Part shown: positions 3,733-5,755 of the stretch, piece by piece
Position numbering within the stretch: position 1 is the stretch's first letter
How the letters are laid out: each line of letters opens with the position of its first letter
Assembly (NCBI GenBank): GCA_003963115.1
Contig: RXJQ01000025.1
Location: forward strand, 1 to 64,000
Length of the DNA: 64,000 nucleotides
Source of the DNA: Burkholderiales bacterium
GTDB taxonomy: Bacteria > Pseudomonadota > Gammaproteobacteria > Burkholderiales > Burkholderiaceae_C
Direction: 5' to 3'
The notes under the pieces: model-generated
What the model was told of the DNA's origin: nothing
The model's input: only the letters and a program-made list of their open reading frames with translations
Database searches by the model: none
Program-made: the position numbers and the translations under genes

Positions 3733-4740
3733 TCAGGCGCGACGCTCCTGACGACGTGCCGCCACGGCCACACCGAGCAGGCCCAGACCCATCAAAACCC
3801 AAGTTGAGGACTCGGGGACAGCAGCAATCGAAAATTGCGTCATTGATGCAACCCCACTCCCAATGACCAACCCCCCTTTGACAGCCTCGGCACTGTCATT
3901 GCTGAACTGTACGCTGAACGGGCTTTGCGACGCATCTGTGGGAGGGATGGCAGCAGCATTTACCAACACGCCCGTCTGATCTCTGGCTTGAGACCCAGTA
4001 GCGGTATTAATGAACTGGTCGACAACCTGTCCATTTGCATCAGCGAGAACCACGCCATTGGCGGCCATCAAAGTAACGTTCAAAGTATAGCTTCCTGCGC
4101 TGATCCCATCTAACAAGGGACCACTCTTGAGGGTTGTCAAGTCGACAGCGGCATTGGACTGCATCTGACCATCAATTACCAGCAAGGTATGTGGTGACAA
4201 AGTGAACGAGGTGTCAGTCGTCCCCATTGGGTTTGGCAAGTTCACGCCAAGCAGGGGGGAAAAACTCGAGCCATATGCCATCCCAGAAGCACCAAGCAAA
4301 GTCGAGTTGTAGATGGCATGACTTGGATCAAAAGCACCAACCCCACCAAGATTGCTGTACTGATCAGCATTGACCCGTACGGTCACCGATGTACCTGCGG
4401 GACCATAGCTGGCGTTAACCTCGCCACTGCCCGATACATAGTTGGCCCCCGGCGCGGTGAAAATGTCCCCATTGGTGGTGTGAGCATCGGTCGTGGCCGA
4501 TGACCCGGAACCGATCGGCAGGTAGTCATACCCCGTATTGACTAGCGAACCCAAGCCCACATAGGTGCCACTTTGAAACTGGATCCACGGTGTGATGCCG
4601 TCGGATGGATCCAAGTTAACGAGGTGATAGCTCAGCCCGGTAATGGATGCCGAACCTGTCACCGGACTAGGCACATCTGCTGCATGAACAGATGAAGCCA
4701 AAGACAAAAGCAATGCTGACAGCGCAAGACGCTGGACCAT
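3733..4740 (-). CDS. PEP-CTERM sorting-domain protein (family member 1)
   Basis: Secreted protein of 335 aa. It has an N-terminal signal peptide ([20 protein letters not shown], cleavage likely after AHA/HAA). It ends in a PEP-CTERM sorting signal: VPESSTW, a hydrophobic helix [11 protein letters not shown], and the basic tail RRQERRA. Such tails are recognised and cut by exosortase, and the protein ends up at the surface or in extracellular polymer. An AAGGAGA ribosome site lies 8 bases before the ATG. The body shares three motifs with the neighbouring 315-aa protein and with the one at 50.2 kb: [16 protein letters not shown] near the mature N-terminus, [14 protein letters not shown] in the middle and PFSVQFSND before the sorting tail. 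The function of the body is unknown. Base composition is visibly lower in GC than gyrB or dnaN. Confidence 0.85.
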
Positions 4741-4807
4741 GAGATCTCTCCTTGAACGTTATTCGTGAAGAGAACTCTACAGCAGCGCGGTAGGGCAGGT
4801 CACCCCC

Positions 4808-5755
4808 TCAAACGAGTACAGGTGTAATCAAATGCTTGCGCGACACACCTGCCAGCCCGGCCAAGCCCAGCGCCCACAGCAGATACGAGGCCGGTTCCGG
4901 GATCGCGGGATTGGGAGGAGGATTGATGGTCAGCGATTGCCTGACCTCCAGGCCCACTTTGACGCTTGCATCCATCGAGCTAAACCCATCATTGGTGAAC
5001 ACGATCTGGAAAGGATCGTTCACGGAGGTCAATGGTGTGTAGATACTGTTGATGGCGGACGAAGACACCTCAGACGACGCCACCGAGCCAATGCCCCAAC
5101 TGCGCTCATCGTCACGGCCGTCAGGGAAGTTGTTGTCCCAGTTGCCCTTGACATAGGCACTTGCCTGGCTAGCCAGTGTGAGGCTGCCTTGGGCGGGAAG
5201 CATGCCAGTCAACGCTGCCTGCACATTGGTTTCATTGAGCGAAGAGCTGATTGAGGCCTGGCCCTTGAAGACAATGGCGGTGTGGGCTCCCAGGGTAAAG
5301 GAGAACTCTTTGCCTCCCAGCAGGTCCAGTTGCTGCTCGAACGTCGCTGAATTTCCCCGCTCGGCCACTGGCACGGTATCGATGATCGCTTTTGCCTGAT
5401 CGACACTGTAGTTCGATTGCAGAGAAACACCTCCCGCACCAAAGCTTGCCTGGCCAGACGCATGCGTAAAATCAATGCTTCCTGACCTGTTGTAGAGCGC
5501 TGTCGGTTGATCCACCTGGCTCTGGAACGTCGTATCAAAATTCTTGCGGGTAAATTCCCAGACTGATGAGCCGCCCGGCGCCTTGAACGTCACCGTGGGG
5601 GCGACGCCGTCATTCGGATCGAGATCGATCAATTCGTATGTGAGGCGGCTGAGCGAAACACTCGCCGTCGCCAAATCGCTGGCAGCCCATGCTTGCGCGC
5701 TGAACAGTGCCAATGCCACATTCGCCAGCGCGAATGCCTTGAATGTCTTGCCCAT
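4808..5755 (-). CDS. PEP-CTERM sorting-domain protein (family member 2)
   Basis: Secreted protein of 315 aa, directly upstream of member 1 and in the same orientation, 67 bases apart. The signal peptide (ALANVALALFSAQAWA) is followed by the family motif LTYELIDLDPNDGVAP. It has a central FSFTLGAHTAIVFKGQ motif and a late PFQIVFTNDG motif, then the sorting tail IPEPASYLLWALGLAGLAGVSRK. The residues after SRK (HLITPVLV) form a slightly longer tail than usual. A GGGAG ribosome site precedes the ATG. The tandem arrangement and motif sharing suggest duplication. The position between dnaN and gyrB suggests insertion into the ancestral origin operon. No catalytic motif is recognised, and a beta-rich surface or matrix protein is the likeliest reading. 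Confidence 0.85.
   Translation of the reverse strand: MGKTFKAFALANVALALFSAQAWAASDLATASVSLSRLTYELIDLDPNDGVAPTVTFKAPGGSSVWEFTRKNFDTTFQSQVDQPTALYNRSGSIDFTHASGQASFGAGGVSLQSNYSVDQAKAIIDTVPVAERGNSATFEQQLDLLGGKEFSFTLGAHTAIVFKGQASISSSLNETNVQAALTGMLPAQGSLTLASQASAYVKGNWDNNFPDGRDDERSWGIGSVASSEVSSSAINSIYTPLTSVNDPFQIVFTNDGFSSMDASVKVGLEVRQSLTINPPPNPAIPEPASYLLWALGLAGLAGVSRKHLITPVLV

Follow-up and report, generated by a model that had tools for sequence, protein, structure and literature searches.

One body family of predicted PEP-CTERM proteins recurs at a few fixed chromosomal addresses, including the dnaN-gyrB gap, in a Burkholderiales genus

Results

Three PEP-CTERM genes with one kind of body

We analysed a 64,000-nucleotide stretch of DNA (hereafter the window) from a Burkholderiales bacterium whose genus is probably Aquabacterium (named relatives include two Aquabacterium records). 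Two tandem genes between dnaN and gyrB, P2 and P1, and a third gene, P3, between an HDOD protein gene and a hybrid histidine kinase gene encode predicted PEP-CTERM proteins whose bodies are, by profile comparison, homologous and constitute one family. As judged by model searches the body family is new and unnamed, while the kind of protein to which it belongs is already known; across the genus its genes recur at a few fixed addresses. The features discussed below are the following, in window coordinates.

1062..3596, minus strand: gyrB, the downstream flank of the P2-P1 niche
3637..3668, minus strand: hairpin with T-run in the gyrB leader, directly after a TAGAAT box; G+C-rich; found in filled and empty loci
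3733..4740, minus strand: P1, second PEP-CTERM gene of the tandem, 335 aa, 67 bp after P2; TIGR02595 20.4 bits
3751..3825, minus strand: PEP-CTERM tail of P1, residues about 306-330, PES variant
4808..5755, minus strand: P2, first PEP-CTERM gene of the tandem, 315 aa, 83 bp after the dnaN stop; PF07589 23.9 bits
4835..4906, minus strand: PEP-CTERM tail of P2, residues about 284-307
5839..6975, minus strand: dnaN, the upstream flank of the P2-P1 niche
48154..50079, minus strand: hybrid histidine kinase gene, the downstream flank of the P3 niche
50154..51182 (from ATG), minus strand: P3, third family member, 342 aa
50163..50237, minus strand: PEP-CTERM tail of P3, residues about 316-340
51288..52118, minus strand: HDOD-domain gene, the upstream flank of the P3 niche

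All three open reading frames carry a PEP-CTERM tail and, in the order described by the initial annotation, three body motifs, whose forms include LTYELIDLDPNDG and LHYELVNLQPNGG near the mature N-terminus, FTLSPHT and FTLGAHT in the central block, and PFQIVFTN and AFELVFTN just before the tail. Their starts resemble signal peptides by eye (basic start, hydrophobic core and AxA site; ...VHA/AD, ...AWA/AS and ...ARA/DD). Each protein passes at least one curated tail cut-off (TIGR02595, cut-off 16: P1 20.4, P2 13.6, P3 28.0; PF07589, cut-off 20.7: P1 20.4, P2 23.9, P3 29.1). The genes are also, as had been stated, less GC-rich than their neighbours (GC of 54.8, 57.1 and 57.2% and GC3 of 56, 67 and 70 for the three genes; neighbours: 61-67%, GC3 about 86). 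This low GC is relative only, since the other PEP-CTERM genes of the genome fall below the core genes as well; with the gap genes of the whole genus sharing the lower GC3, an argument from base composition to horizontal transfer is not decisive. Adjoining gyrB at the contig end is a 286-aa open frame (45-905, minus strand; GC 54%) with a Walker-like motif that resembles the N-terminal part of the type I restriction protein HsdR and is possibly a truncated or cut-off gene.

Searching the source genome with P2 retrieved P3 (E=7.5e-9) and P1 (2.3e-8), along with P4 (L005), a fourth paralog located next to clpB; neither P4 nor the genus-wide pattern described below had been part of the initial annotation. 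An HMM of the bodies with the tails removed, built from relatives outside this genome, recovered P1, P2, P3 and P4 at 138, 110, 84 and 158 bits, whereas the best of 1,000 shuffled bodies reached 6.8 bits. A stricter HMM, trained on members outside the dnaN-gyrB gap only, gave P1 107 and P2 115 bits, at least 34 bits for 31 of the 32 gap genes and 19.8 for the remaining one; none of 13 other PEP-CTERM proteins whose tails are of this kind scored above 2.8. The 14th 'control', L096, scored high; it is a family member in the training set and the same gene as L155. Given this separation from both shuffled sequences and other PEP-CTERM proteins, the likeness among the bodies is due neither to their tails nor to a Ser/Thr/Ala-rich composition.

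When 58 member bodies were scanned with NCBIfam 20.0 and Pfam, no model matched more than one member, in agreement with the claim that the body belongs to no recognised family; no known domain family takes in P1-P3. PDB sequences and PHROGs gave no useful match, and a phage origin was rejected as a PHROG match was absent. Thus the undescribed body family proposed in the initial annotation stands, whereas export and exosortase processing, proposed together with it, are predictions from sequence signals. Near-invariant residues are D, D and N, within the motifs DLxPxDG, L-S-A-x-T and N. In one genome, a 638-aa frame about 12 kb from dnaN (L157:1013-2929; G017:C21) consists of two PEP-CTERM proteins head to tail, with sorting tails in the middle and at the end, and represents either a fusion or a frame problem.

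AlphaFold2, run with 12 sequences, yielded models covering P1 (pLDDT 63, pTM 0.68) and P2 (pLDDT 74, pTM 0.73), in which long beta strands and short helices follow an identical order (medium confidence; compared by order of elements). The two members modelled may share the common beta fold anticipated for the three proteins. Foldseek comparison with the PDB returned unreliable matches only (TM 0.27 or lower throughout), and identification of the fold by this route was dropped as all hits were of low TM. The weak hits were often sugar-binding beta-sandwiches (CBM22, CBM4, CBM16, a hyaluronan-binding module and TNF-like lectins); the CBMs and lectins are like the family in that its models are all-beta, but at such TM values and with no sequence similarity this is resemblance only. 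Since the matches are unreliable, sugar binding by the body is a guess.

The dnaN-gyrB gap is a recurrent address

The tandem had been described as interrupting the dnaN-gyrB neighbourhood. P2 and P1 do lie between the two genes, in a gap of 2,242 bp, yet the arrangement is a recurrent, genus-wide address and not a one-off. Within the genus its length is bimodal, with 17 genomes at 85-216 bp and 22 at 1.1-5.1 kb; in none of 71 other genera of the taxonomic family does the gap exceed about 300 bp. Family genes occupy it in 20 genus genomes, one to four in tandem (32 genes); all 32 are co-directional with dnaN and gyrB, and the gap genes keep their open frames, signal-like start, body motifs and tail. 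Presence of the family in the gap requires 8 changes on a dnaN/gyrB species tree. Other occupants were also found: a GGDEF gene (diguanylate cyclase) on the opposite strand in five genomes (G062, G003, G002, G005 and G031), beside or replacing PEP-CTERM genes; a TonB-dependent receptor gene with a PepSY-TM gene instead of the family in G001 (L054:1527-5427); and an additional PEP-CTERM gene from another family in two genomes. By eye, we recognised no transposase or integrase among the open reading frames of the gap, and we found no published account of PEP-CTERM genes at dnaN-gyrB.

The TAGAAT box and the hairpin with its T-run (together 3637-3680, minus strand) fall within the final 136 bp ahead of gyrB and look like a transcription attenuator or a very short leader RNA. 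A TAGAAT-like box and a hairpin are recognisable in most of the genus genomes examined, with differing stem sequences. As they occur in both filled and empty loci, the family genes sit downstream of the dnaN stop and upstream of the gyrB promoter. The site may be tolerated because the genes are co-directional and the gyrB promoter and leader stay intact.

Family members sort by address

In several genomes relatives of P3 adjoin this HDOD gene, and the kinase is usually present too; relatives of P4 lie between clpB and a metallo-hydrolase gene. The HDOD-kinase interval is short (empty) in 20 of 27 genomes and the clpB-hydrolase interval in 4 of 28; no conserved transporter gene stands beside the family gene at any of the three addresses. 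On a tree of 53 family genes, the three addresses required 2 state changes (15-21 in shuffles); genome of origin, by comparison, did not cluster (63 changes; 57-65 in shuffles). A two-state comparison of gap versus elsewhere gave 8 changes (18-31 in shuffles). Support is 100/95 for the clade that unites the clpB-site genes with their kin, and many inner branches are weak. P1/P2 fall in one positional subgroup and P3 in another, and the clpB site has a third. With the gene tree sorted by address and not by genome, the genes appear to be positional paralogs of long standing, prone to divergence, duplication and loss. Most simply, they have long resided at fixed addresses, where they were repeatedly lost and duplicated in tandem, rather than having been inserted at random time and again. 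The clpB-metallo-hydrolase interval (L005; G017, G021, G011) ranges from 11 bp to 18 kb among genus genomes and is a variable site that holds more than PEP-CTERM genes.

An initial four-sequence profile had hits in 28 of 61 genomes, every one of them within the genus. When all candidates were scored in a sample of the taxonomic family, members appeared in 4 of 74 other genomes, one of which has eight. An order-level sample, in which at most eight candidates per genome were scored, contained members in at least 6 of 299 other genomes, and absence in this sample is weak evidence. Single matches came from Azohydromonas, Roseateles and Duganella records and from Burkholderiales MAGs. Some genus genomes lack the family, indicating that it is not essential.

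Gap genes diverge rapidly between conserved flanks

In close pairs of genomes, identity is 40-91% for the gap proteins and 96-99.7% for DnaN, and in most such pairs the gap genes exceed dnaN/gyrB in dN by well over tenfold. Their dN/dS is 0.14-0.51, below 1 in every close pair. PEP-CTERM proteins have been described as among the fastest-evolving proteins of their genomes (Haft et al., PMC1569441). Some pairs also show an excess of dS, as in G034/G063, where the gap genes have dS values of 0.68 and 1.76 against 0.20-0.33 in the flanks. Such an excess is larger than the likely effect of weak codon bias and suggests replacement by a divergent allele. A tentative extension, which we regard as possible though doubtful, is that dnaN-gyrB, HDOD-kinase and clpB-hydrolase hold position-locked hypervariable cassettes whose near-identical flanks act as recombination arms that swap alleles between strains, giving a surface or matrix diversity system next to dnaA-dnaN-gyrB.

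Exosortase genes and known relatives

The source genome has four exosortase B (XrtB) genes above cut-off, and EpsI type B and EpsF at one locus. XrtB is present in 39 of 42 genus genomes, with 2-4 copies in most, which bears out the expectation that the family co-occurs with exosortase. The four XrtB genes, on G000:C21 and C107 (L083-L086, L167-L169), are complete; two are divergent, about 4 kb apart. With PEP-CTERM/exosortase proteins in general (TIGR02595/PF07589) the family has in common a signal-peptide-like start, a PEP-TM-Arg tail, a host with exosortase and EPS genes, and fast evolution; it differs from them in having a discrete body that neither NCBIfam 20.0 nor Pfam names.

Three named families were considered. 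PepA (NF033554) is an exported PEP-CTERM protein, as the family members are predicted to be, but P1, P2 and P3 score 29.9, 10.6 and 25.2 bits against a cut-off of 80, mostly over the tail, and no genus genome passes that cut-off; weak PepA-model matches at other loci score below 0 with the new body HMM, except the family member L096. EDSAP-1 (NF041538) proteins are of similar length and P3 has a weak full-length score (22.8 bits; cut-off 100), but family bodies without tails do not match. FxDxF (NF038126) is the best NCBIfam match of P3 (32 bits over the C-terminal part; cut-off 50), and this match is lost once the tail is removed. Tail-free bodies likewise gave no match above cut-off to other named PEP-CTERM families. 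Membership in all three was rejected, the matches being mostly tail-borne and all below cut-off. We likewise discarded a sigma-54 promoter (-24 GG/-12 GC) of the kind found at Aquincola pepA: the best sites of P1-P4 score 4-6, and the family mean (4.6; shuffles, 3.9) is not clearly above background. In Aquincola tertiaricarbonis, overexpression of PepA restores flocs and shifts polysaccharide from soluble to bound, while several further PEP-CTERM genes in the same study failed to restore flocculation (PMC9850573).

Discussion

We favour, with moderate confidence, the reading that these genes encode an exosortase-processed, secreted family whose mostly-beta body gives structure or adhesion to the matrix of the exopolysaccharide layer or binds its polysaccharide, and that the family is kept at fixed addresses and subject to fast change and loss. 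For P1-P3, export and exosortase processing are predicted from their sequence signals, and by analogy we infer a matrix role comparable to that of the floc-associated PepA. The protein would be exported by Sec; exosortase B would then recognise and cut off the disposable PEP-CTERM tail at the inner membrane, and the body would be released or attached into the exopolysaccharide layer at the cell surface, where, as a matrix protein, it may have a structural function, mediate adhesion or bind polysaccharide. Recombination within the conserved genes on either side might exchange some copies as cassettes.

If the dnaN-gyrB gap were instead a hot spot for repeated horizontal insertion of unrelated or mobile genes, the PEP-CTERM genes would be merely frequent cargo. 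The GGDEF genes in five genomes and the TonB-receptor/PepSY pair in one are what such a site might hold, and the 6-8 changes in gap occupancy on the species tree and the lower GC of P1-P3 point the same way. We nevertheless consider this unlikely: gap genes cluster on the family tree, which sorts by address and not by genome; all 32 gap family genes run with dnaN and gyrB; our inspection by eye recognised no transposase or integrase among the gap open reading frames; and 71 other genera have nothing in the gap. We give about as little credence to the proposal that the proteins are surface-exposed recognition molecules under diversifying selection (phage receptor, kin or self recognition, or predator avoidance) and not matrix structure. 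Extreme divergence between near-identical flanks, signs of cassette replacement (a dS greatly exceeding that of the flanks) and presence/absence polymorphism at three addresses are consistent with it, but dN/dS below 1 in every close pair is no direct sign of positive selection, and no recurring partner gene (effector or immunity) accompanies the family genes.

A role as exported proteins that bind a metal or some small ligand appears highly unlikely. Such roles have been proposed for some PEP-CTERM exoproteins, for example the zinc exoprotein ZepA of Anabaena. A paper on a zinc exoprotein (PMC10957091) reportedly mentions PEP-CTERM proteins, and the near-invariant D, D and N could be ligands; these residues, however, lie in structural motifs (DLxPxDG, L-S-A-x-T and N), there is no conserved Cys/His cluster, and the three addresses lack a conserved transporter gene beside the family gene. 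Least probable of these alternatives is that the genes are relaxed, near-neutral and on their way out. Frequent absence and fast change would fit, but gap genes retain open frames together with signal-like start, body motifs and tail, their dN/dS is 0.14-0.51, and they show tandem duplications rather than decay.

Our preferred reading remains that of a secreted matrix family held at fixed addresses. PEP-CTERM proteins are numerous and mostly unexplained, and here one discrete family is available with a reusable HMM and a predicted fold. Its fixed sites in about 40 genomes provide natural presence/absence controls, and with a pattern that is position-locked yet hypervariable, the exchange of cassettes through recombination in the flanks can be tested directly. 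The core pair dnaN-gyrB can host variable surface-type genes, and what goes beyond the routine is a hypervariable family at few fixed addresses, a candidate for a role in the aggregation of freshwater bacteria.
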